From Tubulanus polymorphus (taxonomy: Eukaryota; Nemertea; Palaeonemertea; Tubulaniformes; Tubulanidae), in the NCBI RefSeq assembly GCF_964204645.1, contig NC_134027.1, positions 8,916,485 to 8,980,484 of the forward strand: DNA of 64,000 nt, read 5' to 3'. The position numbers were made by a program, and so were the translations under genes. This document shows positions 4,201 to 47,064 of this stretch, in pieces. Each line of letters starts with the position of its first letter. Positions within the stretch are counted from its first letter, which is position 1. Below the pieces are notes generated by a model that worked only from the letters and a program-made list of their open reading frames with translations, ran no database searches and was not told the DNA's origin.

Positions 4201-4464
4201 TCATCTTCGACTGGCGGGGGTGGCGCGGCGTCTGACAGCGACGAGCCGGCGATGAGCAACAAGGCGAAGGAGGACAAGCCGACGACGTCAGGGCGTCGAC
4301 GTAGCGACGCGCCGCAGGATCTCTCGATGCCGAAAACGACGGCCGCGACGGCGACGAAAAAATCGCCGGCGAAATCGAAGAACGAAAAACGATCAGATTA
4401 CGCGAACAGTTTAGACGACGAGAAACCGTTAGATTTGAAAAAGTCGTCGAAGTCCGATTCGTAG
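1214..4464 (+). CDS. CHD7: CHD7-type chromodomain helicase, C-terminal part (5' end outside window)
   Basis: This is the 3' end of a nuclear ATP-dependent chromatin remodeler of the CHD6/7/8/9 (kismet) subfamily. Exons: 1214-1286, 1396-1441, 1460-1691, 2112-2240, 2520-2676, 2884-3185, 3289-3393, 3679-4464. Their lengths sum to 610 codons and all phases agree. The first exon gives a lysine/arginine-rich stretch like the KKRRRRKK...EAER segment of vertebrate CHD7. Exon 2520-2676 has an AT-hook-like KKRGRKPK. A BRK domain (RIPVVSIEDGTRLTGEDAP..DLEDWLETHP) starts at 2884. A second BRK-like unit spans the end of that exon and 3289-3393 (ITGAKAPPLKHLAEWL). The last exon is alanine-rich and carries PQDLS and PLDL motifs before a TAG stop. 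The chromodomain and helicase exons lie upstream of the window. The paralogue (6, 7, 8 or 9) cannot be fixed from this part; invertebrates usually have one. The small exon 1396-1441 is inferred from phase and is the weakest link. Confidence 0.88.
3440..3640. repeat. Fragment of a dispersed MITE family in a CHD intron
   Basis: The intron 3394-3678 contains a stretch (GAGGAGGGTGTAGGGGC ... GTCAAATTGCCCCGAAATTTT) that matches the left half of the inverted-repeat element at 8162-8424. The terminal inverted repeats are not preserved, so this is a truncated copy. Confidence 0.55.
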
Positions 4465-4786
4465 TAGGCCGAGAATGCGCGCAAATTTTTCTGATGCTCA
4501 CGATTTTTCTGCTGCTGCGAACGAACAAATGTTGAAGAAAAAAATACGAATATGGTCTCAAGCGAATTTCTTGCTTTCTCATATTCTATCTACTAAACGG
4601 CAGGGCTCATTTCTTACGGAAATAATCGACTTCTTATTATTTATTTATTCGTTTAGCTTGCTATTTTGAGATGTGTATATAGTGTTATGATTGATGATCA
4701 TGAGGATTATGACAATTAATTGGTAAATGTATGGAATTTTGTAAATAATGATAGTATAGTTTTGTGGTCATCCGATATGAAATAAA
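4465..4786 (+). other. 3' UTR and polyadenylation signal of the CHD-type gene
   Basis: After the stop codon at 4462-4464 the sequence becomes AT-rich and non-coding. The first good AATAAA lies at 4781-4786, about 320 bases past the stop, which is a normal distance. I infer cleavage shortly after 4800. Confidence 0.6.
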
Positions 4787-6279
4787 ACGGCAGTTATGAA
4801 TGAATGATGGAGAAAAACCGTTTTTGAGGTTGATTTTAATGATTAGGTTTCATTTTAACATTTTACATTAAAAAGTGACGAGTCGAATTGCGAAAAAGGT
4901 TTCGTTCAAGTCCCTCCTCGATCCCGATTTCGACTTTGACCTAGATGAATCGGCGAAGAAATTTAAATGATTTTGCAAAATATTCTCTAGATAATCCTGA
5001 TTGATAATCATTATTTTTTGGGAAGATAGAATTCAAAACATCCCCAGAAAAGTGAAAACATTACCATTACCATAAACATTCGGAAATTGACCTTGGAAAT
5101 CTTTTTAAAAGTACTAACTTGTAATGTCGCGCTCTTGAGGACTTACTATGAATTTTTCTGAACATACAAAAACCAAAAGCCTTTTTATGAACTAGCATAA
5201 TCAGAATAGATTTGCTATTTAGATTATATAGACGATTAGTATCAATTATCATAACCGGCTATGTTGGTTGATAAAAACGCCAGGTAGAAATTATCCATTT
5301 ATGGTGCACTTGGCACCAACCCACTACCGAGAACACCATCTTAGTTGGATTAGATAATCGGCATACTTGCTCGCCGAGTGAGTATGCTGGGTATGCTAAT
5401 CGATTATGATAACCAATGTTAACAAAAATGACAGATTATGACATAATCCATGCTCTTAAAAACGTTTTGCATAATTTTCGACATTAATCTAGTGTTCATA
5501 AAAAGGCCTCAACTGCCATGCGTGATTGGTTTGACAACAATTTCTAACGCAAGACTTGTAGGATTTTAAACTGTTTGTTCATTCTTCACTCGATTGCGAT
5601 GTATTACAGTCAACAAGATGAAAGTTGAAGGGATGGAATAAACTTGTCTTGTAGAACAGTTACTACGATCATGACGCGTTGTCCAAATAAGGAGTTCGAA
5701 ATCTAAACCAATTATTATCTTGGTCAGATTTTATCATTTGGTCCCTATATTTACTGGATCATACCAAACGTTTTGTAGGATACTATTCTTTTCGCAATGG
5801 TTGATCGAGTATTCCGGAAAGGAGTTCATTATTCAGTTCAGTGTTTAGAGAATCCAGAGAATGGGTTCTATTAATACACATGGACCACGAAAATCGCTTC
5901 AGTTACTAATAATGCATTTAAGATTACAGAGCCAAAATTGTTTTTTTCTTTTTTTTACCGTATATAATTATATTAACAGTCTATCCATTTTTCGCAATTC
6001 GAGAACAAGGCACTTCGGCGATTGCCTCATGAATCTTGCTCAGAAAATGTCTGTTTCGAATAGAAATAATCTTTTCGAACTGCTGCCTGGAAATGTACTT
6101 TAATTATAATGCATACGATGCGCTTTAAACCTTCAGTGCGGTGGGCTGGCAGCAAGACACGCCCCTTGATGAAAAATATTCCTGTTCCAACGCGAAAGCG
6201 TTGCTCATAGAAAAATGCTTGGACGGTCCACCGCATATTGAGCGTACCTGCTGTGATACATATTGAGTGTGTATTGTAA

Positions 6280-6306
6280 AATTATTATTATTATTAATAT
6301 GATAAC

Positions 6307-6337
<31 letters not shown>

Positions 6338-6342
6338 ATATA
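6280..6342. repeat. TTA/TAT trinucleotide microsatellite
   Basis: A run of ATT/TAT trinucleotides with one interruption (AATATGATAACT) is directly visible. It explains the asparagine- and isoleucine-rich reading frames on the opposite strand, which are artefacts. Confidence 0.9.
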
Positions 6343-7779
6343 TGTATATATGAACGTGTAAATAGGTAGAATTTGTGAATGTATTTTTTTCGTGGCGTGA
6401 ATGTGAATGATGTGTACTATTTGCTTGCATTGTGTACCTAACACTGGTTTTCGATGATAATAAACTAAGCAGTGCTAGCTATTTATTTTCAAATTCGACC
6501 CTTCGTCTCCGTTCTTGTTGTAGACGCTGTTGATATCTCCGATGAGTTGAAACGTATATACCGTTCTAGTTCATGGTTAGCACGCTAGACGGTGTCGGTT
6601 TCGAACGCGTGTGGACAATGAGCATAGTACGAGTGACCTTACCTGGCCCAAGTTCCACGGGTGTCGAATTTGAGTTATTCTTACGTCGATTGGGTAAAAG
6701 CTGGTATCAAATATAAGAATGACGCTCAACGTGACCGGGTGGCATTGATGGCTAACCAACATTGCTGGATTTCGGAATCTAGCAGTTTTAAGTCGACCTT
6801 AACTATTAGAGCTGTTGACCTTGGTAAAGTCGGAGCGGATCTAGGAAAAATAGAAGGCTGTGGGTTGGAAGAAGATTCAAGGCATTTCTCGGAAAAAGCA
6901 ATCGTCTCAAAGGCCACTAGCGGGTCCACCCTCGATGAGGATAACCGTTTACTCCGGACCTCATGACCACCTCTAAATCCACCCCTGAAAGTTCACGTTT
7001 TCAGTTAGACATTTGAAATATGTTGTGGACAATCATACACGATACAGGCTAACGTAGATAATTTGAAAAAAAAAACGAAGAAGCGATCCGCGTATCGAGT
7101 CCGATTATTCCTACGTATCTTTCATTTACTATCCCCCATTATTGCGAGAGCGGATTCTGAAAATGTGGTTATCAGTCGCACCAGACACTCCTTTAAATAA
7201 ACCCCGTACCTTTTCTCAAATACTGCTGTCGTAATATCTAAACCGATGACATCTAGTTTTATGGCCAAGGACCCTCAGATAATATTCAAAGCGTCCTTGC
7301 GGGGGACGAGACCGGTACTCCAGTACAAATCCTTTGAATCGCAACTTGAAGATTATCTGATATAATTTTGTGACATTTCCAGTTTGGTTGACATTTGAAA
7401 TAGATACAGGACCACCAAGGTGAAGTTCAGATTCACAGACTCATTCGTTGCCAAAAGAAAAACTACGGAGAAATCTAAGCCAAAAAATGGTATTTAGCTT
7501 ATAAAAGCGGATTGGTTTCCATTTTCTTCGAAATTAGAATCATCCGAGTGTACAACCTACAGGCTTAATCTGTACTGGCCTATACCCTAGGGACGTTGCT
7601 CGTATCTTAGTCGTGTTCTGTGCTGAGAACGGATTCGCCGAAGCCTGAATAAATGACATGTATATGAATATATCTTCAACAAACATTATCAATGAAGTTG
7701 TCGAATAAACACTATAATCCGTGTTAACTGTAGATAAATGAAGAAATCCCACACTTCGAATTTGAAATTATACTATCAA

Positions 7780-7862
7780 ATTTATTATTACGAAACCACA
7801 ACGTTTCGGCTGATGACTAACAGCCATCATCAGGTGGAATGACCAGAAAAACAAGTTACAAA
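7780..7862 (-). mobile_element. Penelope-like element fragment with hammerhead ribozyme-like core
   Basis: Read on the minus strand, CTGATGA (plus 7827-7833) is followed by a GGCT stem, a 10-nt loop, the matching AGCC, and then GAAAC (plus 7803-7807). This is the order of the conserved hammerhead core: CUGAUGA, stem II, GAAA. Hammerhead motifs of this kind are known from the terminal repeats of Penelope-like retroelements. A degenerate relative lies at 60241-60276. No reverse transcriptase frame is visible nearby, so this is a fragment. Cleavage activity is not shown. Confidence 0.55.
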
Positions 7863-8161
7863 GCATATAAACTCACAGGATCTAAAATAGAAGCAGTGTG
7901 TCAAAACTAATTATCAATGAACAACGAACTTTTTGACATACAATATGTAATTCCGGCTTGATTTGTGTCGGTTTTGTGCGGTAGAACTGTTCGTTTAAAG
8001 ATAAACCTAGCCTTCAGTGGCCGGGTATTGTTTTTTCATCGTTTGACGTCCTAATATAACATATTCATACATACTTTCTAGCTGTCAAATTTCCCACGGA
8101 AATGATATATGTGAAGCGTTAAACACGTTTCCCAAAATCGTAAAGACGAATCAAATTATAG

Positions 8162-8424
8162 TCAGGGGCGGATCTAAGCGGAGGGTGCAGGGGGTGCGCT
8201 ATCTTTCCAAAGGATGTCAAGTTGCCCTGAAATTTTTACGGGAAAATGAAAAATATTAGATCTAAAATATCAAATTGTTACCTAACAAAATTAAATTCAT
8301 AAGCCTCGCTGTATTAAAAAAGAAATGAGTTTTTTTTGCGATGAATTTCTTCGGAATGCCATTCTAATTATGTGATATGACCTATTTTGGGGTGCACCTC
8401 TCCCTGACCCTAGAATCGCCCCTG
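8162..8424. mobile_element. MITE with TCAGGGGCG terminal inverted repeats
   Basis: The left end reads TCAGGGGCGGATCTAAGCGG. The right end, read on the other strand, begins TCAGGGGCGATTCTAGGG. The element is about 263 bp, has no coding capacity, and shares its ends with many GGGGCGGATC-type fragments across the window (near 12400, 18491, 22610, 35113, 38644 and 61513). It is probably a non-autonomous DNA transposon. No clear target-site duplication was identified. Confidence 0.65.
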
Positions 8425-10048
8425 ATCTCTGAGAAGATACTTCAAATACTTAAAAAAGAGGGAAAATATCTGGTACGAAGTCGACGACCGAATGAAATTC
8501 TACCTTACAAAATCGTTTCATTTCATGAACATAAAAATGGGATATTGTTTCGTTTAAGTCTTCGTGGCTGTTCGAAATGGCGATATCCGTTTACACGCAA
8601 AATTATTCGCAGAAATTCATTACCGCCTAGGCATCATATAGACGAGTCACTATAAGTGAGAAACGTAAATTATCACGTCGCCCCTCATTTGTTCACTTCA
8701 TATATATACACGTATTTCAATCTTAACCCAGCCATGTTCTGAGTAGACCAGAATATCGACCAGACAATAGATATAGTACAGTTTTAAGCGTTATTATAAA
8801 ACTAGATCCGGTAGATTACTTGCTGAATAAATAAAACACATATAATGGTTTATATCAAATATTTCTGCACGAAAACATGCTTCTCGCCAATGATGATGAT
8901 CTGGTCTCGCCGGTATACCTGAAGCTTGCGCCGCCCGATTTTGGAGCCGAATCATTCACCGTATAATTCGCCCGCGAACTCGGGAGATCAAGGTTGCGGC
9001 GTGATTCGGTGTGAAGATGATTGGCCGGATAAATTCGCCGATCAATAAGCCTTTTTTACAGTTGCAGGCGCCATGTTTTTGGGTACCCTCTGGGTCGGCA
9101 TTGTTTAATTTTTTTGCTCCTTATTTTCCCAATTTGATGCTTTTATTTCGTCCATATCCGTGGAATATCTGAAAATAGAAACGACGTGAAAATACCGATC
9201 CAACTGCAGGTGATAATTTTGACGTTACTCATCTAAATATTAACTGCACCAAAATTATGAAAAGACTTATGATTATAATATGGCGGTTACATAAAAATTT
9301 GCATATATCGTATAATAATTGGAATTCTATTATATTGCTATTATTTTACAAATATTTCATGGACCCTCGCGGAGCAACTATTGTACCTACAATCATTAAA
9401 GGACTAGGTGACCGCCTACTCGTCTACAGAAAAAAAATTGTTTAATGGTGGTTTTCGGTGCAGCACGCGAGAAATCTTAATCCTCTTTCATCATCAATTC
9501 TTCGTATTTCGACTCGGATTCTCTTTTTTGTGAGCACGGTTCAACATTTCATGTTGTTCGCAGAGAAAAGACTCATCAGGGAAAATGTCAGCTCCATAAG
9601 TTGAAGTGAAAGATGCTTTGGGGCTTATGCCGTCAAAACGTACCAGACCGATCCTGGTTTTGTGTCATGCGCGTTTGGATTCGCAGACATATTTCAAGTT
9701 GTGTTAATCTCTCTGTACAATTGAATATTAAGTAAACTTACAAGGTATATGATCTAATACGCTGGACCTGTCGGCCTTCGTTCAAACTCGTACAAAAGTT
9801 TTGTCGAATCTAAAAGATTCGAAGCTGCAAGCGAACATGGTGAACAGATAATATCATAAAACCAACACATTAAGAAAGTTTTAAAACATCTGTCATTGAT
9901 GCTTGGGACTCTCACTAGATACCATTTCCTTTTTTATCTCCCATTTCATTCTCGTCAAATTGGAAATAACGCTTACAGAACAGAAAGAGCAGTAAGATTG
10001 CGTTTACGACCTCTTGTCTGAAAACTTCGCGAATCCAGATCTATCAGC

Positions 10049-10438
10049 TACGGAAGCCCCTAGGTGACATACGAGCAATTTTTTTACAATTGCGACTTAT
10101 TATGTCGAATTCCGACTTATTATCTCGAAATTCGACATATTAAGTCAACTTTCGAATTTCGAGTTATTTTTATGTCGAATTTCGAGATAATAAGCAGTAC
10201 GGAAGCCCCTAGGTGACATACGAGAAAATTTGTTCACAATTTTGACTTATTAAGTCGAATTTCGACATAATAAGTCAAATTTCGACTTAATAAGTCGAAT
10301 TTCGTGTTAATTAAGTCGAATTTCGAGTTTTGTTTTCATGTCGAATTTCTACTTATTAATTAAGTCGAAATTCGACTTAATTAACACGAAATTCTACTTA
10401 TTATGTCGAAATTCGAATGTCACCTAGGGGCTTCCGTA
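10049..10438. mobile_element. Foldback element with CGGAAGCCCCTAGGTGACAT ends
   Basis: TACGGAAGCCCCTAGGTGAC appears at 10049 and again at 10198 in direct orientation, and as its reverse complement at about 10417-10438. The interior is made of many short palindromes built from GTCGAAATTCGAC and TTAATAAGTCGAA. The piece from 10198 to 10438 is therefore almost entirely self-complementary. This fits a foldback DNA transposon or nested MITE. There is no coding sequence. Confidence 0.8.
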
Positions 10439-11039
10439 AATAAGTCTACATGAAAATGACACAAAATTCGTCATAATCGATCGATACTTTCGACGAATAG
10501 ATACAAAAGAGAAAAAGATCATTGAAAACAAATTTGAATGAAGAAAACCTCATTGACGTAAGAAAATATAGTTTAGAGTTGTATCTTGGTTGAATCGGCC
10601 GAGGTGGTGGCTTCCTGGTTGAGTAGACATTTTACATCGTCGTTTGAGTTACGGCTGTTATTATCTAGCCAATAATGACACCAATAAGCAAGTGTTTCAT
10701 CCACAATGAATCGATTGTACAGTTATCAACAGAATCATATCTAGCGAAACAACTCGAAAAGAACAGAGATGGCGTACGTTAGCCAAACAAGATGACAAGT
10801 ACAACGTTAGTCAGTTGTAAATATTTGAGTTGTTGATTCGGAAGAGGTGTTTAAATATATATAATCTTGGAACGAGCCGATAAAACCCATCCGAGTAAAT
10901 ATCAATGTAATTGTGCGATTGATTGAGTCAATCTTAGGAAGCATATTTCATAACCGTTTTCCGAACCAGAGCCACAGCTTCGCAGATACTCGCTTATTTT
11001 GAGACGCAGAAATCCAGTGAAGATTCTCTGATTGTGACA

Positions 11040-11064
11040 ATGACGAGAAACTCGATAGTGAAAT
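11040..11064 (+). other. Candidate start exon, unassigned
   Basis: An ATG at 11040 opens an eight-codon frame that ends at a strong GTAAGT donor (exon end 11064, phase 1). A TATA-like AAATATATATAATC lies about 190 bases upstream. It could be the 5' coding exon of the receptor gene that becomes clear at 13350, via a phase-1 hydrophobic segment starting near 12694. No single continuous model could be fixed. This is inference only. Confidence 0.2.
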
Positions 11065-11775
11065 GTAAGTACCGGGATCCATCTTCAACCGCAGGTGAAT
11101 ATAAGAATCTTGCGGATAAGTGTACTCACTATTTCGGTACGCACTTTACGTCTTGATCATTTTTATAATACGCTTTTTAGTTCAACCACCGTTAACCAGT
11201 TTGAAGTACAAGAAGATTACTCGTAATATTTTACATGATTTTTCTAATCAAATTATGCATCATATCTGTAAACTCGATTACGGATAGGGTCATTGTTCAG
11301 TTTAAATTACCGTGAACAATTTACGCCCCATATGGTATCAATACGTTATTCATATGTGCTAGAATTACGTATATAATTAATGAAGACATTGGGTAGACGT
11401 TCTACCGCATAAAATAGCGTCTTCAAATCGAATTGAAACGCTCTTAATTTCTCACGAGTTGGAGAGGAATTGCTCACATTGATAGTATACGCGTGATTAA
11501 TTGAAATTAAAAATTTGAAATTTGAAATTTAATCGCTACCCCAAATGACGGTCTACCATATTATTGATACCCATTTTTTATTTCGAAGGCAGATGTTTCC
11601 AAAATCAGATCCGAAACTTCACATTTCGAAATAACATTGATTATGTGCAGGTGTGGTGGGTTTGTAACGGACAACAATCAAGTCAAATCAAATCAAACGA
11701 AATCTATCTAATTAAATAAATGATAGGGTCAATCCCTACTTTAAGATCGAAAATTATGTTGTTTGCACGTTTCAA

Positions 11776-12078
11776 GGGGCGTCACTATAGGATGTTTTTT
11801 CAAAGGAGGTCAGAATTATTACAAGCGGAGCTTACTTTACACCGCACCCGCCAAGCGCCGACCGCAAAGGAGCATTTCTGAATCCTTCAATGTTCTAAGA
11901 TATTTTCAAATTAGGAGCTCGAAAGGGGCGTTTTCTGGGCCTTATAAGACCAAATATTTATGAAATTTCTGGAATGTGGGAAAAACCTAAATTTTGAAAT
12001 CAAAATGCGGAATTTGGTTTTAAAAAAAATGGGGGTCGTCCGCGCCCCCGACTCGTCCCCCTCTGTTGACGCCCATGG
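11776..12078. mobile_element. MITE with GGGCGTCA ends
   Basis: The left end is AAGGGGCGTCACTATAGG. The right end, TTGACGCCCATGG, is its approximate inverse. About 300 bp of AT-rich, non-coding sequence lie between. Open frames across it have no support and are treated as chance. Confidence 0.5.
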
Positions 12079-13349
12079 TTTCATACATTCAAATGCGTTT
12101 TTCATCCGATTGTTTTTGATTTTTGAATTTTTCCAAAAGATTAATCCGTCTAGTATTCACATGTGGGTTGGAGGACAATTCAATATTATTTTCTGCGGAT
12201 AAAATAGACCTGATACAGTATCTGTGTGACATTTTTCACGATAACATGTTAGCTAAAACACACCTTAATTATTTCGCAACATACGACCTTTTTCAATCGT
12301 CATAAACTTGGGAAATGGAGACGTTCGCCCACCCCGACACACGGCGCGAATTACATTGTCGCTTTTTGTCCTGTTTTCAACCCACCGCTACAAGTGCAGG
12401 GGTGGATCTCGGTGAGAAATTTCACCGGATAATTTAGACCGGCTTTTTGCTTGTTTATTTTTTTTCTAAAGATGGCATCGTTTGTCAGAAGACTATAGGG
12501 ACATCTTAACACTCGGGAAAGAAACAAATATACATACGTCGTGAGTCGTGTGTCACTCGGGATGTACTGATCGATGGACTTGTTTTACTGACGCTGCACA
12601 TCTATACGCTATTGACAGATATACGTACATGTACATGTCATTATTAGCGGTAACAAGACTATCTAACTGTTGAGGTACCAGTAATTTGTGGTTTATACAG
12701 GCGCGGAGCTCAACTCTAAGGAGTGGATTTGTTTTGCGATATTCTCTCTGTATTTCTCACACACTTTTTTGTCCCTGCTTATCAGCCTACTCAGAGTGAC
12801 GTCATTTCAAGCTGACCGGTACAGATATTGCCCCCTGAAGGAACCCCGAATTTCCACGGCTAATGTACACACATACAGACACAACTACAGATATAACAGA
12901 CACAAAAAATTCCAAACTAAACTTTTAGATTCTTTTCAAATTAATTCTAGATATCAAACTTTAACAATTATTCATAGGGGTCCCATGTTTTTTCCCTAAA
13001 GTGTAATATTATGAGGCGCTATTTATAGTTCGATTTGCCTTGACGACAGTTGTTTTAGAGAGAAAATAGAAAAAATGAATAGGTTACGAAGCCGATGTTA
13101 TTGCTATTTAAGAATTAAAACCCTTATTACTTATGCGCAGCGAATCGCTGGGATTCGTTCGAGAATAGTTGGTGACGAATGGCACATTGTCATCTTAACG
13201 GTGTTCTCTGTAAACGCAGGCGGCGCTTGAACTAGTCCAACATTCAGTTCAGAATTCGCTAGAACTAACATAAATATCGCTTTGAGAACGGTTCTAAGTA
13301 TTCTACGACGAAATTTCATCAAGTCGACACGCGCGTTCACCGAGACGAG

Positions 13350-16300
13350 ATGGACCCGGCGGTAACCGACTACGAATCAGGTAAGATGTCATACAGAAAA
13401 GTTTTCTACGATTTCTTTCATGAACATTTTGCAAGAAAGTAATGAGTTAGAAATATTCTTACAGAATTAATTGAATTCAATTAAGTGCGTTGTTATGTAC
13501 GCATTCTTTACTACTTCATACCAATATACTCAATTATCAACTCCTCAAAGGATTTCCGTAATGTGGCATTTATTTCTCTTTTAAGGCAATTTCATTTCTA
13601 GTATATATGTATTAGCGACGTGAAAATTATAACGATTATAATTATAATTATAACAAATAACGATATGAAAATTCTCTTCTTATGGATGTTGCCCGTAAGA
13701 TTTATATATGTGTGGTATTAGATTAGTACATTATATATTACTATCGTTTGGGCAAGTTTTTTTTAGTGTCAATAGAAGCCGTATAAAACTATTTTATTTT
13801 ATTATATCATAATGTATTATAGGCCATTTTCGAAACATCGAATAAACTATTAACTGTTACAGGGAAATGTAAAGTGAAATATCACACTTTTGCAAAAAAT
13901 ATGCCCAAAAATATTCTCTGGTTATCGTGGCTAAATTATTTTACTTTCATCGAAAAGAGTGGCTCAAGACATATATCATTCAAGTGCGCAATGAATATAT
14001 ATATGCTAAAAACCTCTTCGAATTAGTAGGATTCGGAAACTGTTATACTCATATTAATTGTTCTTACATTCTTTTACAAGAGGTTTTCTGCATATTCATG
14101 TTGAAATAGAGTTTTCCCCCGGCAATTTCAATATTGTATGAAAAAAACTGTTGCTTATTGTACAATCAATAGGCTTTATCAGATAGATAAGTATAATGAT
14201 TCCAAAAGTTTTTAACTACTGGACCCGGTTCGTCACACTTGTGAGTTAGAGTTAACTCTGAGACTGGGCCCCGGTATGTAATCGAATATCACATTAATGA
14301 TTATAATAATGTGAGTAATTAATTATTTTTGTTATTATTACTATTACTATTATTATTATCATCATCATTATCATCATTGATTATAATTGATTATGATGAT
14401 AATCATGTTGGAATCTAAAGATTGATAACTGTAGCACTCAATGATATTCAATATGCCCCCTTTCATGTTGGGGTGATTTGCTGTAGATGCGAGTGGTCTC
14501 TGGCTTATATTTGAAAAGGTGAATAAGGATAAATGAATCTATTTACGAAAATAATTCGTTCAGACCTAAATCCTAGGTTCTTCAGTGAGTTGGACCGGCT
14601 CTCCGTTTACTTACCAAGAAAATGATGACTCGGTCAAAGTATCGTTTACTCCGGCACCACCGGAATTCGGTTTCACCGAATACTACGTTGAACTGGTGTC
14701 CGATTACGATGTCGTTTCTACAACCAAAGTAAACAAGGTAAATTGACTGCAAGATATGATATTGATATCAATGCGTTTATCGCCTGACAATTTCATAGTT
14801 GATCTAAACCCCAGTTTCGTGAGTTTATCTAAAGAGTTTATCATCAGAGAAACCAAAACGATAAAAGCATTGTGGTCGTTCTGATGATGGAGTTCAGATA
14901 AACTCCGAAACTGTCAGACAATGAACGCTTTAATATCAACAGTGGTTTTTTACTTGTAAAATGTAAATTCAACGTATTGATTCGTAATCCGTTGCTCGAA
15001 GGAAAACCATTCAAAGCGCCCACTTTCTGGTACAGACATCGGAGTCTAAACACCATCATCCACATACGCATAGATTGGTTAATATTATCCAACAGGCTCC
15101 AGTTCCACAGTCGTGAGTTAGAGTTAACTCCGAGTCAAATCTTAACTCGCAACTGTGGAATTGGTTCCTGATGTCTGTTGAAAAAAACAAGTTTTGAAGT
15201 TCATGGTTATTATCATTTTCAGGATGAATCGCAGATTCTAATAAGAGGTTTATGCCGCGGACATTATTATTTAACGGTAAGCCGAATTCAACCCGAAAAA
15301 ATAGCGTTCTTTTTTCGAAGTAATAATAAGCTGTTGATGGAGCTGTCATAATGATGTACATGAAACAAAATCATGTATTCAATTGAATTACATTTAAGGT
15401 TGATTATTTTCCGTTATTTCCTTTTTTCAGTTGCAACCGGTTGACAAATATAAGATTCCAGAATTGTGTAAATGTAAAAATGGGATAGGCATGTGCACCG
15501 CATGTGATATTGATCTATTCGGGCCGTTTGAAGTAAATGGTTAGTTGATTTATTCACTCAAGTAAAATCTTTCCATCCAAATCAACTTACATTTAATTCT
15601 ATTATCTAAAATGTTTGCAAAATTAAATTCGACTTTCTAACATATATATGTTTTTCCACACACATCCACTGACGAAAACGATGAAACGCATGACCTTATA
15701 GTCATTGAACCATTGAAAATTGAGGGCCTTGAATGTCACTCGTATTACTCCGAAATTTTCAAATATTTTCAAAACTCTCTCGTTCTCGCAGGCTCTCCAC
15801 ACTGCCGTATTATACCTACAGCGTTTCGTGGCACGAAACCGACTGGTAGAAATACTAATGACCATCGATTGGTTCGAACCAGTACGGAATCCACTAAAAC
15901 GCCTTCTACTGCTGCTGTCGCTGCTGCTGCTGAACTTTTTCCAACATTCGAAACTGCGGACGAATCAAATATGCCGGAAATCCCAACGTTTTATTCGGAT
16001 CTGAGTAAGACTTCGGTGTATGTCGTTACGTCGTACAGTCTTGTCGCGTTCGTTATGTTTTTCCGTGGTTATTTGATGTGCAAAAATACGAAGTTGCTTC
16101 ACAATCAGATCTACACCCAAATATTGTACCGGGCTTGTGACTATAATAAATGGTACGCAAATAGTAAAAAGACGTTTTTGCTTATGTAATTTTAATAACA
16201 GTAAATTCGCTTCAGTGTTTATCGTAAAATGCTCCGATCAGAACTTCAAGTAGCAACTCGTCAAGCTTTCGTTCATGAGATTTACGTATTTATTTTCGAC

Positions 16301-19300
16301 TCGCTGAATATTGCCCGGTTGGTAGAATGTCCTTTTAGTTAGAACTCCAAACACAGACTGTAGTTTACATTAAAAATGATAAATTTTATACATTCTTCAT
16401 TACAGACTAATGTTTTGCTAAACTGTTAATTACACCAATTAGTGTCAGACAGGTCTTTGCTCCGAGACATATAAATAACAACAAACCGACGATTTATTGG
16501 TTTGTCAACTAACTGAGCAAAAGAAACAATTCATGTCATTTTGTTTTGCTAAATAATCCTTTTTAAATAATTTGTCGACGATTTATGAACTCTTTGGTTG
16601 AATAGATTGACATTATATAATGGCATCCAAATTCGTGTTGATATTAGGTGTTCGTAATTCTGTTTGCCAGTTTGGAGTTTTCGTCTGTAGAAAAATGGAA
16701 ATTTGAATTGTCTTCTTTATTCACTGATATATGCAAACGGAATAAAAACAACTAGTTTCAAGACTTTGCGGGGGCTTGCAAGGCGTTCCTGTAGTACAAA
16801 ACTATCAACCACTGGATGATAACAAAATAAGTAAAAGGAATTGGTGTCGAATTAGGAATTCCTTTGTAATAATGTTTTGTCCGCTTTGCCGTATGTCATC
16901 AAGGATACTGTGTCACATTTGTTTGTAGCAAACGAAAAATAAAGTTATGCACCTGACATTTTTATCAGATTTAACTATTGAATTTATAACTGAATTATCA
17001 TTTTTTCCAATGGGGTTTGTTAAATTCACTTCGATTATTCATTCGCATCATCGCAACTTCATTTGCAGTCGATGGAAACAATACGTCGCTGTGGGATGCT
17101 GAAGATCTGTCGGTGGAAAATAACGCGACTGGTCAGTTGATTGTAAAATTCACCGCAGCCCCGAAACCTTATAAATTCCGAAAATACAAAGTCTCATTGG
17201 GAACAGCCAGCGGTGATATTGTGGATGAACTGTATATTTATGCGGTATGTTACTCAAACTAATTACAAGTCATTGGGTTGTAAACTTTTCAATAGTAACT
17301 TTACGTACTGATTTCGAATTGTCTGTATATCAGGTCGATTTCTTGCTACGCGCTACACGAAGCCTGTAAGAATTTATGGAATAGATAATTTCCCCACAAA
17401 AGAACATTTGTTTTGCATCCTGAAAGGATAACCATTGCCACCTTTCCCATCATTTTTTCTTTCTATTTTCTATATCTTCTCATTCACTTTATATCCATCG
17501 CCAGGCATCGAATCGATAGGCGTGTAAAGCTATCTGATAGATAACGTCCTTGGCTGCAACGGAGACAGAGTCAACTAGAGTAACCTGTAATGTGAATTCT
17601 TTTCGCAATTCCCTCTTTTAGGATGAGCAATGCGTTGTTTTCAATGACTTGTGCCGAGGCCAATACATAGTACACGTAAGTTAAATGGTATACATATTAC
17701 AAACTTCACCACTAACGATAACTTGTTACCTTGAAGTAGATACGTACTTCATTGGACTCATTTCAGTGCTTTCAATTACTGTTACTTTCAATTTCTAATT
17801 TACCAATCTAATACAGGCCATTGAACTACAATACCTTCCAACAAAAGTTCTTCTTGTGCATAAATATAAGAATCGAGTGTGGGGCTAGAACCTAATCCGT
17901 GTAATTTTTTTCTGGCCTTAAAAAGATATATACTCATTCCTTTTGCAGGTCGAACCATCTCAAGGTGGTCTTACAATGCTGCCATCGTGTCCGTGTAAAC
18001 TGAACGGACAATGCCACAGCTGCGTAGGCACATGGAGACTGGTTGTTATCACAAATGGTGAGTAATAAAATCAATAATAATTTGTTACGTAAAAGCGCTT
18101 ACATTGAAACACTATCAGAGCCCTTTTACAAAAATTGGTTAAAGATCCAGTTAGTACGTCAACTTGCTTTGTTCACCAAGAACCTGAGTGTCTGATGTAA
18201 TGGGTAGGATCCGTGTTAGATCGACGGAGATACAACCACTTACAGCATTTTTCAGGACCGTGTGAACCTTCTGCGGAACGTATCTGACGTGTTTTGTGCT
18301 CAGTTTACAGCAAGATGTTCAAATATGAAATGATGAAACAGATTTGAATTCGGTTTTATTTTCTGGAATACAACAAATCGTTGTTTCCAACCTATGGCAC
18401 TTGTAGCCACAGTTAAGTGCCATGGTGTCAATTCCTCATCAGGACAAACTTACTGCTTGATTTCTTATGCCCGTCCGTATATTCGCAGTCGGCGAGGGTG
18501 GATTTAGGGGGTGGACCAGGTGGCATGGTGCCTTTAGAATTAGAATATTCCCTCCATATATATCGAAAAGGGCTCCGTTATGGGCCAGAAAAGACTTTTA
18601 GTTCATCAAGTATCTGTGATGGGACCCTAAAAACCTCCACCAATGCTTCGCTGGCAGCCCTCGCATTGCCAAATCTATCCTTCTAAAATTGTCTGTCCGT
18701 CTTTCAGGCACAACCCTTCCAAGAATCCTAGATTCGCCCTTGGAGGGCCCATATCCCCGCTCATATTTCTTGCAAATGCGGATTGATGTGGGTTACGTAT
18801 CTATCGTTTTAGGAAAGAGCTGCGACGGAAAACCTGAAAATAACACCGAAATCATCCCGAAATTATCCGATCAAACGCCTTGTACGAAGTCCGAAGGGGA
18901 TTCACTTGAGGAGGGGGATATCGCTCCCCAAGATTGGTCTGGCGATTCAAACGTCATACCAGACGGCCACAAGCTTCCGCCAACACCAACTGTACAGGCC
19001 GAACGTAAAAGCGTACACGTTCGAAACGATCTAGATATTTCAGAACAGCTAAAACAACAACAACAACAGCAACACTATAATCTACGCGGCCGATTTTTAA
19101 ACGACAGCTATATCGGACTGGAGAAGAGAGTGGCCGATACTGGAACGGGGAAATTGGCGGACAGTACGCACGGTTTAGGACTCGCTAGCGTTGTTGGTCT
19201 CGTAAGCTCGGCGGTTTTCATCATTGCGTTGATAGCTCTAGTGCTGATAATCGTGAAGTTAGTTCTGCGCCATAAAGCGAAACGTGAGTAAACATACATG

Positions 19301-21521
19301 CATTAACTCCTCGCAAGTTGCTTAACTTTTCAAATTTACGGGATGCCTCGGTTGCAAGATAACTAAACTATGCGTAGGCACCCGATGGAGAAAAAAGACA
19401 TTTCAACAGAATTTCACTTAATATGATAATTGTTCAGTCTGTCACCGTTATCATATCACATGGCTTTCTTAGAAAATGACGGACATTTTTCACCCACCAT
19501 TTCAACTACAATTTATTTCCCAGAAAAGCAGAACATTGAAATTACGAGTTAAACAATTCAAAAAGAGAGAGAAAAATCATCGAATATGACAGTCTGCTAT
19601 CATTATACAAAAAGCTACAACAAAATCAAAAGACGTGACAAAGCGTACCGTCAAGTTATAGATTTTGAAATGGTTTGTGTTTTCCCTCGTATTGTGGGAT
19701 TTGTCATTAAGTTTAATGACATAAATTTAATGACTTAACATGATACGTATTTGTCTTATAAAGACATTACGGTTTTCGTTGCATTTGCGAGATATGGTGA
19801 AGACGAAGACGATAATGATGATGTGCAGTTCCTAATCGCGGCGTTGAATTTCTCATATAGTTATGTTGGTGTGACATTTTGTTGTCCATTTATGAGTTTT
19901 TTACATAAATCTGAGGTATTCTAGTTAGGTTTATCCCGTTTACAGTAATTATGCATTAATTTTTTGGATGCGTTGCTAATTGCAGAGAATTCAAGAATGG
20001 TGACCCCGCTCCCGATACATCGTAAAAAAGAAAACAAGCGAACGTCATCACCGACAGACTATCTTCAATCCATAAAGATACCGAAAAATGAACCAAACAC
20101 GTTATCAGGTAAGTTTACGACGGATTTCTATGTTTTATCGCTACGCCATTTCCTTTCTTAGTTGCAGTCGTACAAAGTCAATGCTCCAAAGTGGTGAATA
20201 TTCGTAAATGAGTTTTCGCAACTTTTCCAGAATAGCGCCTTCTGCAAAAACATCTTTCATCGTATATAATCCTGGTATACATACTATTTCGCCAGTCGCC
20301 CAGCAAAGGCGATATTTGCTTTTTTGTAGAAATTGTTTTCAAAGCATTCCTTTTTACCGTATGAAATTTCACATTTTCTTCCTCAGCTGCAAGCTCAATG
20401 TTCATCGGCATTCCGCGGGTGATGATTATATATTTCAAGGACAGCGAACAGCATCAAAATGTTGTGCACCACTTCGCCAATTTCGTCAACGAATACGGTG
20501 CTGTTGACATCCGCATGCATGAGTGGTCACAAAAAGAGATTCACAGAGTAGGCACGTACCAATGGTTGAACAACACGATGGAGGACTGCCAGCATATCAT
20601 CGTTATCAATTCACGCGGAGCCTACGAACGTCATCGCTTGCTGAAGAAAGGCAAACCACTGCCCGACGACGCAACCGACCCGCTGGGCAACATGTTCCCG
20701 CTGGCATTGGATCTACTAGCGAAGAAGTACGAGACCCTCAAAGAGAAGTACATCATGGTGTACTTCAATTACGACGATAAAGAACACATTCTGAAACATC
20801 TAAGTTCCGGTATTGAACTGTGCATGCCGCAGCACATGGAGCAGTTGTACTTGCAGCTGCATCACTGCGAAGAATACGAGGGCGGCTTCAAAAACCACGT
20901 GCGTCTGTTCAACTCCGAGGACTACATGAGCACCCCAGAAGGAAAAAAACTTCAGGACACGATCAGAAAGATTTACCAGAGGATAAACAGTAACGACACG
21001 CACGATTCGGGCATTCATTCCACGTCGCCGGAAACTATGCGACGGCTGAAACAACAAAGCGGGAATTCGACATCTTTACAACTGCCAGAAGATAGGCTAT
21101 GTGAAGGTAATTATGCTTATTGGCTATTTTAGTGAAATTTACAAATGAAATGATATTTTCGAAGTCCATCATAGAGGATCTCATGGGGAAAGTAATCGTG
21201 GTTTAGTTTGAGAACAATTAATTCAGGGTAAATAAAACAAAAAGACATGAAACAAAAGGCAACGACTGGAAATACAAATTTCGGAGATTTCATATATAAA
21301 ATCAAAAAATCTATCAAAAAAGATCATAATATATATTCGTAGCATTTGTAATATAACCTAACTTATCAATTTTTGTTTTATTTTAAGGAGACGCCGTTTC
21401 GACAACTAGTACTATGTATTGCAATGACGTGGCGTGTCAACTGCTTGCGGAGATCGACAATGGCAACAATTCAATTGTAACTAGTCGAATCCACGATTAC
21501 GGAACTCTGCCACATCATTGA
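13350..21521 (+). CDS. IL-17 receptor-like type I membrane protein with SEFIR domain (long form)
   Basis: This is a cytokine receptor of the IL-17R family. Exons: 13350-13380, 14577-14737, 15223-15276, 15431-15539, 17069-17244, 17622-17675, 17949-18057, 18813-19283, 19986-20108, 20387-21106, 21388-21521. All phases agree and give about 713 residues. The ectodomain is two modules, each of three exons, with fibronectin-III-like sequence (VKVSFTPAPPEF; LIVKFTAAPKPY) and paired cysteines (LCRGHYY; LCRGQYI; CKCKNGIGMCTAC; CPCKLNGQCHSC). Exon 18813-19283 has a polyglutamine run and a strong transmembrane helix (SVVGLVSSAVFIIALIALVL). Exon 20387-21106 encodes the SEFIR domain (MIIYFKDSEQHQNVVHHFANF ... 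CQHIIVINSRGAYERH), which recruits Act1-type adaptors in known systems. The first exon gives MDPAVTDYES with no signal peptide, so the true N-terminus is probably encoded further upstream. It is nearest the IL17RD-like or invertebrate IL-17R group, but the paralogue is uncertain. Confidence 0.85.
14221..14276. repeat. Short palindromic MITE (GAGTTAGAGTTAACTC core)
   Basis: The stretch CACTTGTGAGTTAGAGTTAACTCTGAGACTGGGCC is flanked by CCGG-containing inverse ends and shares its core with 15094-15170. It lies in an intron of the receptor gene. Confidence 0.5.
15094..15170. repeat. Hairpin MITE in receptor intron
   Basis: CCAGTTCCACAGTCGTGAGTTA on the left pairs with TTAACTCGCAACTGTGGAATTGG on the right, giving an almost complete hairpin of about 77 bases. 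It belongs to the same family as 14221-14276. Confidence 0.7.
15792..16189 (+). CDS. Alternative terminal exon of the IL-17R-like gene: transmembrane segment, no SEFIR
   Basis: A CAG acceptor at 15789-15791 opens a phase-matched frame from the G left by exon 15431-15539 and runs to a TAA at 16187-16189. It encodes a Ser/Thr/Ala-rich stalk, a hydrophobic stretch (VYVVTSYSLVAFVMFF) that could span the membrane, and a short basic tail. It sits at the same position after module 1 as exon 18813-19283 does after module 2. Together with the four upstream exons it would give about 250 residues with one ectodomain module and no SEFIR domain. An AATAAA at about 16741 could end this transcript. It could be an alternative 3' exon of one gene or the end of a separate tandem gene; transcript data would decide. 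Confidence 0.55.
16190..17068 (+). other. Receptor gene intron or intergenic spacer between the two ectodomain modules
   Basis: This is AT-rich sequence with no exon I can support. AATAAA motifs at about 16741 and 16937 could end the short transcript. Directly before exon 17069 the open frame reads LRLFIRIIATSFA, which resembles a signal peptide. It has no in-frame ATG and follows a normal CAG acceptor, so I treat it as intron. Confidence 0.5.
18491..18742. mobile_element. MITE in receptor intron, GGCGAGGGTGGATTTAGG ends
   Basis: The left end GGCGAGGGTGGATTTAGG is matched by an inverse right end CCTAGATTCGCCCTTGGAG. The element lies just upstream of the transmembrane exon and supplies an extra in-frame CAG acceptor at 18705-18707. 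Confidence 0.6.
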
Positions 21522-22393
21522 AAGAGAGAAGAGATATCGCTATACTTGGTAAACAGCATCCATTTTTTTGTGATATCTCCGAATTTGTGATCGGAGACTA
21601 TATACGTAGGAAAGCTTTGTAGATATTCTCAACCGGAAACGAAACGTTGATATAATGTTACTTAAATATAAATATTTTTCGTCTGGTTTCAACGCGATGA
21701 ACGGAACTGTTTGTTTTAGCTGTCTTAGTCAGAACTTGTTCAATGTTGATACTTCTCTTTTCGACGGATTTTGGATTACATTCACATTGTACATAAAGTA
21801 TACCGATATCATTCAGCATGAATGTTTTTTCGTTTAGTTTAAGAAAGTTTTCTCGCGGCTCGCAGTGTGCGAGGTTGATGTTCGTTGTATATGATTATCA
21901 TGTTTATCGCGTGTTGTGCTGGGTTAATCGAAAATTGTTTATAAGATCGAAAATAAGATTTTTTGTTCGCAGCAGACCACGCCCTGAAAGATAGCTCTTG
22001 AAAGCAATTAAGTTGCTACTCGGTCAGTGCTAATAAGGAAAAATAAACATGTTACAATATACATTTGCTACATTTTGCGTAAAGTTTGTAAGAAAGATGA
22101 TTCCAAATAGATGTTGACCTGTTATATATATATAATCACTGCGAAAAATTGTAAATATGTTTGAAATGAATAAGATTGCGATTATTACTAGTTATTGTAG
22201 ATCAATACTATCCAGAACTGGAATGTTACGTTAGCAGCGTTTCTGTTTACTTGCAAATTTAAAAGCATATCTTGTTATACGATACGCGTTATTACAATTG
22301 TTATATACATATATACGTATATATACTTGATGAAAAATGACTGATGAGATAGATAAGACATGGGTATTACAGGCATGTAAAAGTTACAATAAA
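21522..22393 (+). other. 3' UTR and polyadenylation signal of the IL-17R-like gene
   Basis: AT-rich non-coding sequence follows the TGA at 21519-21521. AATAAA motifs occur near 22042 and at 22388-22393. The second lies in a typical poly(A) context (ACAATAAAGTTTTC). Confidence 0.55.
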
Positions 22394-22609
22394 GTTTTCA
22401 ATGTTGAATTATTAGTAATTTATACGTTTCTCTCCCTGTTTTATTATCTGTCGCCAGATCTACCGTAACTCTCTGTCAGTTCCATAGGGTTTTCATATTT
22501 ACTATCGAACCAAGATATATACACGTTTGACCAAAGGCTAAGTTTCGATGAAGCCCAGGGGCGGATCCTATCACACTATTCGACTGTCACATGTCAAAAA
22601 GGCAGATAG

Positions 22610-22880
22610 CAGGGGTGGATGTTGGATATCTGGGAGGCCGGGCTCCCGAAATAAAGAAAAGGCGGTTCTCAGATGAAAGCGATCATATCATAGGCTTCTA
22701 TCGGGCCCGCCTCGTTATTCGATGTTTTTCTGCTTTTTTAAGAGAAAGAAAACGATGCAGTTTCCGAAAGGATGATCAAATTTACAGGTTTTAACGATCT
22801 TTGCCTTGATGAAAAGGGCAACTTAAATGGGAAGGCAGGGGACCGGACCCCTGAGACCACCCCCTAAATCCATCCGTCTG
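22610..22880. mobile_element. MITE-like repeat of the GGGGTGGAT family
   Basis: It starts with CAGGGGTGGATGTTGG and ends near CCCCCTAAATCCATCCGTC, the inverse of the same family ends. Open frames in both directions across it are short and unsupported. Confidence 0.5.
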
Positions 22881-23035
22881 GATGGGTGAAAGAGGAATGT
22901 GTGCATTGGCGGGTGCGACCCGACCGTCGCGTCGACTTGCGAATGGCACAGTCGCAAGGGCGCGCAATTTGACGGGCTTAAATGAAGTAAATTCCATCGC
23001 AATGAATCGCAAGCGCGGTCGTTGGTCACCCGGTT

Positions 23036-23345
23036 CAGCGGAACTATTAGCGATAATCAATAACAATAGCATGTCATGCATTTCGGCCTCCGTTAATTAC
23101 AGACGTTGGTCTGTATTTGTCACTTTGATACTGTGAACGAACACGCCTCACTCGTCGTCTATGAATAACCAAGACGACACACAGACCAGCGAGAAAGCGA
23201 GAATTAATAAGTCGTTTTATCATTACTTTCCTGTAAAATATTTATTCGCACATTTCATATCCTATTACAGGCAAGCGCTGACCGGCAGGCAGTATTTTAC
23301 TACAGTGCATGTTTTATAATAATACATTTTACTACATGTACTATC
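23036..23345. repeat. Local duplication, copy 1
   Basis: This segment, containing ATGTCATGCATTTCGGCCTC, GTGAACGAACAC and AAGCGCTGACCGGCAGGC in order, recurs at 24207-24497 in the same orientation with small indels. It contains no exon I recognise. Confidence 0.85.
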
Positions 23346-23366
23346 ATCTACTTTTACACAAAGCAG

Positions 23367-23744
23367 CAGGGTCCCTACAGATCAGTCTTTCCAGAATTCA
23401 ATGACTTTTCAAGGAGAATATTTCAAATCTCGAGTAGTGTACGCATCACTTTCATATCCAAATTACACAAGACTCCTCCTAAATCGGTACTGTTTATCTT
23501 GGTTAACTGTTAATTCGGTAACTTAGAAGGCAAATATAATCTTTTACACTAACTAAACTCGGTTTCTAATTCAGTAGCCGCCTAAACCATTTGATTCGGT
23601 GGAATCTGCGTGTATTAAGTGTATGGACAAACATTTTGGAATTGCCCAATTTCTCAAAATTCAAGGAGTTTTCAAGGACTTTTGGGCATTTTGCTCAAAC
23701 ATTTTTGGTTTAGAAGGAGTTTTCAAGGAGTCGTAGGGACCCTG
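23367..23744. mobile_element. MITE with CAGGGTCCCTAC terminal inverted repeats
   Basis: The left end CAGGGTCCCTACAGATCAG and right end GTAGGGACCCTG are perfect inverses over the outer 12 bases, bounding about 378 bp. Relatives lie at about 33133-33505 (same orientation, in a TBC1D31 intron) and 59165-59538 (reversed, in the LRRCC1 intron). A short end fragment is at 3223-3258. Confidence 0.8.
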
Positions 23745-23947
23745 GCAAAGACACTAACCCTTGATTTAACCAAGAATACGGTCAACCTCAGATATACCGC
23801 CCACATCAGTGCAGAACGATTTTGGGCGGTATAGAAAGAATGATGATATAGCAGGTGGTGTTTTACTATGTATTTGTATTGAGAAAACTTAGCGGTAGGC
23901 AGTATATGGGAGGGCGGTGGGTTGACTGTAGAATTCTCATCACCAGG

Positions 23948-24129
23948 GATCGAAGGTGTGTAAAGCTATCTGATACATAATGTCCTTGGCTGCAACAGGG
24001 ACAGAGTCAACTAGAGTAACCTGATAGGCTTTTCGCAATTCTCTCTTTTAGGATGAGCCACGTGTTGTTTTCGATGACTTGTGCCTAGGCTAATAATAGT
24101 ACATGTAAGTAAAATGGTATACATTTTAC
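23948..24129 (+). pseudogene. Dead copy of an IL-17R-like ectodomain exon plus flanking intron
   Basis: About 180 bases closely match 17510-17700, covering intron, acceptor, exon 17622-17675 and donor. The copied exon (24052-24104) keeps a TTTTAG acceptor and GTAAGT donor. It is one base shorter (53 against 54) and reads DEPRVVFDDLCLG followed by stop codons, so it cannot be used in frame. It lies about 6.4 kb downstream of its source on the same strand and points to a third, decayed module or a stray segmental copy. Confidence 0.8.
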
Positions 24130-24206
24130 CATGGACGTATAAACTAGACAACACGATTCATAATCATAAATATATATCTGCTTCAGATGATGTTCGATAA
24201 TTATTT

Positions 24207-24497
24207 TCAGCAGAACTATCAGCGATAATCAATAATAGCATGTCATGCATTTCGGCCTCCGTGAATTACAGACATTGGTCTATTCGTCACCTTGATACTG
24301 TGAACGAACACACCTCACTGTCGTTTATAAATTACCACCAAGACGACACAGCGAGAAAACAAGAAGCCGCTCTATTATTACATTCCTGTAAAATATTAAT
24401 TCATACCCTATTACAAGCAAGCGCTGACCGGCAGGCATATTTATTTTACTATAGTGCATGTTTTATAATAATGCATTTCACTACATGTTCTATCATC
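24207..24497. repeat. Local duplication, copy 2
   Basis: This is the direct-orientation partner of 23036-23345, about 1.17 kb downstream. The two copies flank a MITE and the dead receptor exon. Confidence 0.85.
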
Positions 24498-25089
24498 TTC
24501 TTTTACACAACGACTCTTAATACTCTCGATTTTGCAAAATAGAATTATCAAACCAATACCGCTTGTCTACACACTAGGTTTGCGTGCAGAATTGTACATT
24601 CTATCCTATTTCCTCATTCACCAACATTCTATTCATAATTGATATTGTAATACTTGTACATGTACAACTATATACAGGCCACTGCTTGGCCGATGTTATG
24701 GCTTTGTTGAAAGGGACGTAACTTAACTAATGCCATGTCTCTATCAACAACCAAAAGATGAAATAATGCCTGCAAATGCTTGAAACTAGACAATGTGTAA
24801 ACGTTATCTCACAGTTGATAAAACCAGGTTTAGCTAATGTCGCTTGCTTTTAAAACAATGGTTTCATAAACTCGAAATTTTTACAATCTAATCGTGAGAT
24901 TAAATTTACAGTGGAAGCTTGTAACCAATGGTTGCAATGCATTTAAGAAACCTAACGGAGAACAGACATTAGACATTTCTAGACTATAACTAAAACTCTA
25001 TCTTCATCTTTTATGAAAACCTGACCAGCAGGTTACAAATTGCTATAATTAAGCAAGAAATTATGGTAATACATGATGTCATACGATGA

Positions 25090-25095
25090 TTTATT
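25090..25095 (-). terminator. TBC1D31: Polyadenylation signal of TBC1D31
   Basis: TTTATT on the plus strand is AATAAA on the gene strand, about 217 bases after the stop codon at 25312-25314. Confidence 0.5.
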
Positions 25096-25311
25096 ATATG
25101 GAGGCAATCATCATTTTTTACATGTAAATATGTTGTTAGATAAATGCAATTCTTAAGTACAATAGAAACAATACCGATATATCAAAGTACTCAATCAGCT
25201 ACAATGTTCTGAAGTACACATTTTCTGATTCTGAGAACTTATGATATGTTGATTTGGCGTAAACATCATGGCAGAGAGCTGGCTGCATCATCGAGTTGAG
25301 GAACCCAGTGA

Positions 25312-39699: not shown

Positions 39700-39957
39700 A
39701 AGATGAAACTGGTCCCTGATGTCAATAACACAACTGTTATCATCATGTTCCTTCGCCACAATTGGATGTGTTCATAATTTCTCTAGATTACGCTGCTGTA
39801 GATCTCGGACTGTTTGAACGGTTACGGATACATGTCACATTGTGTGCAGTTACAGAGAACAGATCACTGCATTACTTCATCCTGTGATCGAACAGTAATT
39901 TGTTCTCTCATCTTCTCTATTCCCAACTAAAACATCGTAACAGTTCAACTCATCTAA
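39700..39957 (+). repeat. Left arm of a 7-kb-spaced inverted repeat
   Basis: The sequence from about GAAACTGGTCCCTGATGTCAA to CATCGTAACAGTTCAACTCA recurs as its reverse complement, with scattered differences, at 47065-47320. Shared blocks include TTGTTCTCTCATCTTC, TTCCCAACT and GTAACAGTT. Confidence 0.75.
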
Positions 39958-40440
39958 CCGCGGGGTTCGGGGAGGGTGGTTTGAGGGAGGGTGGGAGGGA
40001 TGGGGTCTGGGAGGGCGGGAGGGAAGGGGTATGGGAGGGTGGGAGGGAAGGGGTCTGGGAGGGAGGGAGGGAAGGGGTCTGGGAGGACAGGAGGGATGGG
40101 GTCTGGGAGGGTGGGTAGGGATGGGGTCTGGGAGGGTGGTGCAGGGATGGGGTCTGGGAGGGGGACGGTGGGGTAGGGATGGGGTCTGGGAGGGTGGGGC
40201 AGGGATAGGGTTAGGATTAGGGAGGGTTGGAGTGGTGGGGTCTAGGAGGGATGGAGTGAGGGAGGGTGGGATGTAGGGGTGGGCTGGGGAGGATGGGTGG
40301 TGGTGGGATGTAGGGATGGGCTGGGGAGGATGGGTGGTGGTAGGACTTTGGGGGAGGGGTGAAGGGTCTATGTGGGTGGTACTGTAGGGTTTAGGGAATA
40401 GGTGGGTGGTAGTGAAGGTTTTAGGTGGGTGGGGATTTAG
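39958..40440 (+). repeat. G-rich minisatellite 1
   Basis: Tandem units such as GGGAGGGATGGGGTCTGGGA of about 22-27 bases are repeated for about 480 bp on the plus strand. The open frames across it encode only glycine/tryptophan-rich repeats and are artefacts. Confidence 0.9.
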
Positions 40441-40620
40441 GGTCAGGTACAGTCGTGGTAGCTATTTTTAGTCTTGAACTTCAGGATATTTCAGAAAATG
40501 TGTCCCATTTTTTATTGTATTCTAATAACCAATAGGATTAGTACAAAACACCTTAACTTTTAGGCATCATCACACATGACTTGAATACGTAATTTTACAA
40601 TCACTACGCATACAGCAAGC

Positions 40621-46479: not shown

Positions 46480-47064
46480 GTTGAGGAGGCTTGATCGGAG
46501 GGCATTGAGGGAAGCTAGGTGGGCGGGCATTGAGGGAGGCTAGGTGGGCGGGCATTGAGGGAGGCTAGGTGGGAGGGCATTGAGGGAGGCTAGGTGGGCG
46601 GGCATTGAGGGAGGCTAGGTGGGAGGGCATTGAGGGAGGCTAGGTGGGCGGGTATTGAGGGAGGGCTTGGTGGGGGCATTAGGGTAGGGTGGGATGGATG
46701 GGGTTCGGGGGAGGGCGGGAGGTATGGGGTCTGGGAGGGAGGTATGGGGTCTGGGACGGGGAAGGAAGGGGTCTGGGAGGGTGGGAGGGAGGGGGTTTGG
46801 GAGGGGAGAGGGATGGGATTAGGGAGGGGGGAGGGAAGGGGTTTGGGAGGTTGGGAGGGAAGGGGTTTGGGAGGGGGGAAGGGGTTTGGGAGGCGCGAGG
46901 CGGGAGGGAAGGGGTTTGGGAGGCGGGAGGGAAGGGGTCTGGGAGGTTGGGGAGGGAAGGGGTTTGTGAGGGGGGAGGGAAGGGGTTTGGGAGGGGGAGG
47001 GATGGGGTTGGGGGGGAGGGAAGGGGTCTGGGAGGGCGGGAGGGATGGGGTCTGGGAGGGCCGG
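46480..47064 (+). repeat. G-rich minisatellite 2
   Basis: The first part repeats GGGCATTGAGGGAGGCTAGGT (about 27-bp period, six copies, 46497-46660). The second part repeats GGGAGGGAAGGGGTTTGGGA-like units similar to minisatellite 1. Both arrays are G-rich on the plus strand. Confidence 0.9.

Follow-up and report, generated by a model that had tools for sequence, protein, structure and literature searches.

The stretch at 15792–16189 on the plus strand probably represents a genuine alternative last exon of an IL-17-receptor-like gene, and a transcript ending in it would encode a receptor without the SEFIR domain. The gene lies in a 64-kb window (the whole stretch of DNA that was analyzed, G000:C3:8916485-8980484, from a genome of 268 Mb). 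The exon by itself is held with more confidence than the whole reading, in which a genuine alternative 3′-terminal exon gives a SEFIR-less product that lowers signaling; the chances of the latter are put slightly short of even. Use of the short form in RNA, its polyadenylation, export, membrane insertion, ligand binding and damping action are predictions read from genomic DNA.

The long form of the gene belongs to the IL-17 receptors by its SEFIR domain, its Ig_ILCR1 modules and its transmembrane segment, and is encoded in a single reading frame on the plus strand that runs from module 1 through module 2, a transmembrane exon, a cytoplasmic exon and the SEFIR exon to a last exon. Module 1 is made up of exons at 14577–14737 (161 nt, with a weak acceptor; an alternative acceptor at 14586 also keeps the frame), 15223–15276 (54 nt) and 15431–15539 (109 nt, donor ATG/GTTAGT), and module 2 of exons at 17069–17244 (176 nt), 17622–17675 (54 nt) and 17949–18057 (109 nt). 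Both modules match PF23608 (Ig_ILCR1) in Pfam above the cut-off, with E values of 1.9e-13 and 1.1e-12, respectively; a search of solved structures with modules 1 and 2 gave 0 matches. Downstream, also on the plus strand, are the stalk and transmembrane exon at 18708–19283, whose segment was assigned by KD hydropathy (3.29 over 19 residues), the juxtamembrane cytoplasmic exon at 19986–20108, the SEFIR exon at 20387–21106 (PF08357, E = 2.1e-19, 70.7 bits against a cut-off of 23, domain at 20.4–20.9 kb of the window) and the last exon of the long form at 21388–21521, which ends at its stop. Searched through the genome, PF08357 gives three matches at E 0.001 or better, one of which is the SEFIR of the window.

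The donor of module 1 exon 3 at 15539 leaves one base, and an exon starting at 15792 needs exactly one; the open run to which the candidate exon belongs starts upstream of its acceptor, at 15641. The exon holds 131 full codons and a split codon, which give 132 residues, not the 133 first ascribed to it, followed by a TAA stop at 16187–16189. The preliminary description had presented a phase-matched, terminating stretch after module 1 that mirrors the transmembrane exon after module 2 and yields a short receptor without SEFIR. Its coordinates, phase and stop hold. The transmembrane exon at 18708–19283 follows module 2 in a phase identical to that in which the 15792 exon follows module 1, and the 54- and 109-nt exons of the two modules match. 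The short receptor is borne out at the level of a gene model, with the ectodomain exons joined in phase and the stop ahead of SEFIR. The 15539 donor is in phase with module 2 as well. A full match to the stretch 15792–16189 is found at a single place in the genome, and the match after it is at E 2.97; a multi-copy or transposon-derived exon was rejected on this count.

Acceptor strength was compared across the 3325 AGs of the plus strand using crude splice matrices, of which the ranks are usable and the scores are not. By three generic scorings the 15792 acceptor ranks 1, 2 and 1, the third in a tie with module 1 exon 3. A fourth matrix was trained on the ten remaining acceptors of this gene, to which it necessarily gives high scores; by this matrix the 15792 acceptor ranks 90th of 3325 with a score of 7.2, against 13.0 for the first acceptor of module 2, itself in the training set. 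For chance expectation, 4000 introns of 1529 nt each were simulated from a third-order Markov model trained on the introns of this gene together with 4700–13000 and 21900–28000, non-coding by assumption. An in-phase open frame of at least 131 codons followed any AG in 55/4000 simulated introns, an acceptor scoring at least 3 in 4/4000 and an acceptor scoring at least 8 in 0/4000. When the real 64 kb was scanned on both strands and in any phase, 19 acceptor/phase combinations from 6600 AGs passed a score of 3 and 131 codons: three at the transmembrane exon of the IL-17 receptor, one at its SEFIR exon, three in the run 3679–4461, four over a GPCR gene (two in its frame), six in two proline-rich repeats, one at 63 kb and one at the 15792 stretch, with the top acceptor score. 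Passing pairs thus defined fall for the most part within repeats or probable coding exons. We take the combination of acceptor, phase and open frame in the stretch to be more than chance.

The exon encodes a stalk, a weakly hydrophobic segment at about 16013–16078 and a basic tail of 36 residues. A stalk, a hydrophobic segment and a tail of 30 to 40 residues had been proposed; the segment itself is weak and of a kind common by chance. Its best 19-residue mean is 1.51 on the KD scale, against 3.29 in the true transmembrane exon; among 719 random open frames of equal length, 270 match or exceed this value. Its insertion energy, on a rough scale, is above zero. As a membrane span the segment is marginal. 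GC content is 0.43, compared with 0.34 in the introns of the gene, a value reached in 12 of the 160 overlapping windows of equal size taken from introns, where reaching means 0.43 or more. Codon usage was discarded as a coding test, since it decides nothing when four of the six module exons fall below zero themselves: the log-odds per codon are −0.10 for the 15792 stretch, −0.03, −0.40 and −0.29 for the module 1 exons, and between 0.02 and −0.56 in 12 non-coding runs at least 100 codons long, by a training set of 1677 codons to which three GC-rich pieces contributed 943. The training piece at 3682–4461, which we take to be the end of a chromodomain helicase, had no Pfam match at 0.01.

In the mechanism that we propose, the 15539 donor would be joined either to the near acceptor at 15792 or to the more distant one of module 2. 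Joining of 15539 to 15792 would lead to the stop in that exon and to polyadenylation inside the same intron, and the short product, of about 250 residues if translation starts in the exon at 13350–13380, would consist of one Ig_ILCR1 module, the stalk and the basic tail. Skipping of the 15792 exon would bring in module 2, the transmembrane exon and SEFIR, giving the long receptor. The SEFIR-less product could lower signaling if it bound ligand or paired with full receptors; such decoy action is considered unlikely. A stronger version, in which the gene makes the SEFIR-less form by default and a signaling receptor arises only by active skipping and suppression of the intronic 3′ end, is suggested because the 15792 acceptor is nearer than that of module 2 and stands above it in all three generic scorings; the gene-trained matrix reverses this order, and we regard the version as quite improbable. 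If it is true, the gene would contain its own splice switch controlling IL-17 responsiveness, and a transposable element would form part of the 3′ UTR of the short form.

The putative first coding exon at 13350–13380 on the plus strand (MDPAVTDYES plus 1 nt) starts with an ATG that has G at −3 and +4 and ends in a phase 1 donor, CAG/GTAAGA, with a score of 11.3. It is the only strong first-exon candidate in 13000–14570; the other candidate, with an ATG at 13682, has a donor score of just 5.1. The exon is without a signal peptide, and apart from a poor candidate at 9257–9407 no signal-peptide exon in a fitting phase was found in 4600–17060. An ATG at 13665 encodes the signal-like MKILFLWMLP, with its donor in the wrong phase. 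No D1 was detected by Pfam in three plus-strand frames of 5401–14580, a method of low sensitivity, since the putative D1 of the paralog L010 gave no Pfam hit either. Motif scans, and a tblastn search of window positions 1–22000 with the D1 exons of paralogs, did not find it either. L010 and a second paralog, L008, appear to have D1 domains, which were recognized visually by their position and arrangement of tryptophans. IL-17RA is described as engaging IL-17F by two fibronectin-type domains (PMC4517768). Because IL-17RA is said to use two domains and D1 was not found here, the single D2-like domain of the short product may be insufficient to bind ligand alone, to which pairing with full receptors would be the alternative. 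With neither signal peptide nor D1 found, export and binding of the short form are therefore doubtful. The long receptor as modeled (13350–14737 region) likewise lacks a signal peptide, and where D1 and D2 would be expected it has a pair of D2-like domains; its ectodomain is unusual unless exons further upstream are missing from the model.

It is somewhat unlikely that the stretch is non-functional, that is, a chance open frame or the decaying relic of an exon duplicate in a normal intron of a gene that makes the long receptor only. The undecided codon usage, the weak hydrophobic segment and the 90th rank of the acceptor by the gene-trained matrix agree with this, as does the comparison with four transmembrane exons by local alignment, in which 208, 193, 115 and 85 of 500 shuffles scored equally high, against 1/500 for a control pair of transmembrane exons. 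Taken together, the acceptor, its phase and the open frame argue strongly enough to count against it. Position, phase and the symmetry of the modules suggest that the stretch is a copy of the transmembrane exon, a descent not reflected in sequence similarity, and blastn of the intron 15540–17068 against 18058–20386 gave no match. Partial tandem duplication, which the preliminary description had offered as an equivalent explanation, is consistent with the matching 54- and 109-nt exons; the lack of similarity to transmembrane exons does not fit it, nor do modules that are no closer to each other than to other receptors. Modules 1 and 2 are identical at 28/105 aligned residues, and module 1 has similar identity to L010 (27/103) and L008 (28/98). 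L010 has module-matching exons of 48 and 115 nt, then a transmembrane exon in the same phase as here; the order of a D2 trio followed by a phase 1 transmembrane exon is shared with L010, which favors the reading as an alternative last exon. When neutral decay was simulated, 1.6% of sequences stayed stop-free at 0.5 changes per site, so a relic as old as the divergence of the modules would be expected to have closed, and its open frame would be unexpected.

A second alternative, which we rate as decidedly unlikely, places two tandem genes in this region: an upstream copy, shortened to module 1 and the 15792 exon and equipped with a promoter and a 3′ end of its own, and a separate gene from module 2 to SEFIR. 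The agreement in exon lengths (54 and 109 nt) between the modules, the presence of a tandem receptor pair elsewhere in the genome and the strong first-exon candidate ahead of module 1 are in its favor. Against it, the 15539 donor is phase-compatible with module 2 also, and a search of 16190–17060 for a first exon of module 2 (donor of at least 5, in the right phase) found none, which favors one transcription unit.

The tandem receptor pair consists of L009 (G000:C3:24480000-24489900) and L010 (24495500-24505400), which are 82–89% identical at the DNA level in their four longest pieces, SEFIR exons included. L008 (G000:C3:9643400-9653300, minus strand) is an IL-17-receptor-like gene with D1- and D2-like exons and a clear transmembrane exon. 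Its part 2823–3365 is SEFIR-like by eye, although Pfam did not match it to SEFIR even at E values as high as 10; L008 is possibly a receptor with a degenerate signaling domain. An Ig_ILCR1 match at C12:8288525 was rejected as a further receptor, being judged by eye to be a fibronectin-like stretch.

Two donors in the stretch, TT/GTGACT at 16137–16142 on the plus strand (phase 1, weak, score 2.9) and ATG/GTACGC at 16153 (phase 2, score 6.7, out of frame with the downstream exons), may leave space for its use as an internal exon. Joining of 16137 to 19986, in phase, to give a SEFIR receptor lacking module 2, or use of 16153 to make a poison exon whose out-of-phase transcript is destroyed, are together highly improbable: 15792–16136 would be a 345-nt exon running from phase 1 to phase 1, like the transmembrane exons here and in L010, and the 16153 donor is stronger than that at 15539 (5.6), but the in-phase donor is weak and the segment barely hydrophobic enough.

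Under the preferred reading of a terminal exon, the sequence behind the stop would be 3′ UTR, the first portion of which would be a dispersed repeat of 363 bp at 16191–16553 on the plus strand. As the repeat begins one base past the stop codon, its inclusion in the coding exon was rejected. From its size and rough terminal inverted repeats it is called MITE-like. TAAT stands on both of its flanks (16187–16190 and 16554–16557). The genome contains at least 24 matches to it, with that of the window counted and some being pieces of one copy, and the best other copy among the matches listed is at 95%. Exact 4-bp duplications flank three of seven other copies inspected (L002, L004 and L005); they are absent at L001 and L003, and L006 and L007 are partial matches. 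Because the stop lies within the left TAAT target duplication, it is probably older than the insertion. An origin of the stop from the repeat was rejected on the reading that TAAT is the target duplication: with the flanks joined at one TAAT, the frame ends at the same TAA. A candidate polyadenylation signal, AATAAA, is at 16741–16746 on the plus strand, with further candidate motifs at 16938 (AATAAA) and, inside the repeat, at 16369 (ATTAAA). These three are found in the 879 nt after the stop, against about 1.45 expected at training-intron density.

Truncation by alternative 3′ ends is already known for several receptors, and secreted IL-17 receptor splice forms are reported in mammals. Apart from IL-17RA, the IL-17 receptors are reported to be capable of giving rise, through splicing, to secreted inhibitors of IL-17 signaling (PMC9498678). 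Mammalian soluble IL-17RC and others are, like the form proposed here, SEFIR-less products of an IL-17 receptor gene; the present case differs in having a dedicated terminal exon after the D2-like module 1, with its own segment and tail, and in being a gene model. IL18R1-Short (PMC13232192, a preprint) is alike in its intronic polyadenylation, transposable element and lost cytoplasmic signaling domain. In that case the poly(A) signal comes from the element and damping was measured, whereas here the repeat follows the stop and the case is known from sequence alone. In DAF-2B, a truncated form of the C. elegans insulin receptor and thus of another receptor family, an exon is similarly read past a poor 5′ splice site to an intronic stop, and the ligand-binding ectodomain is kept and reported to sequester insulin peptides (PMC7041946). 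Soluble PD-L1 from CD274-L2A resembles our model in having an intronic repeat at an alternative 3′ end and in being a truncated antagonist (PMC6877088); it differs in that PD-L1 is the ligand of PD-1 and that the exonized repeat forms a new C-terminus. Among invertebrates, exon 16 of sea urchin SpIL17R1, between the transmembrane segment and SEFIR, is alternatively spliced, with no mention of a natural SEFIR-less form in the part of that paper considered (PMC5457136), and the transmembrane segment and SEFIR are described as retained in all six receptor types of the mussel (PMC8353272). In the portions of the decoy-receptor literature covered, no invertebrate was found to have a natural IL-17 receptor form without SEFIR. 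The Ig_ILCR1 domains and the genome size suggest that the present gene comes from an invertebrate. A dedicated short-form exon outside vertebrates would suggest that IL-17 signaling is limited in similar ways across animals.

Elsewhere in the window, ACGGAAGCCCCTAGGTGACAT occurs at 10020–10440 in two direct copies and one inverted copy, seen by eye, around AT-rich TTCGAC repeats. The long open frames at 39877–40461, 46590–47144 (minus strand) and 44078–44782 (both strands) are made of low-complexity sequence or tandem repeats, proline-rich or with a repeated WSPNQGCASKVDSGHQT unit, and are unlikely to be genes. At 57700–58977 on the minus strand is a single-exon-looking gene for a rhodopsin-type GPCR (PF00001, 6.5e-26).
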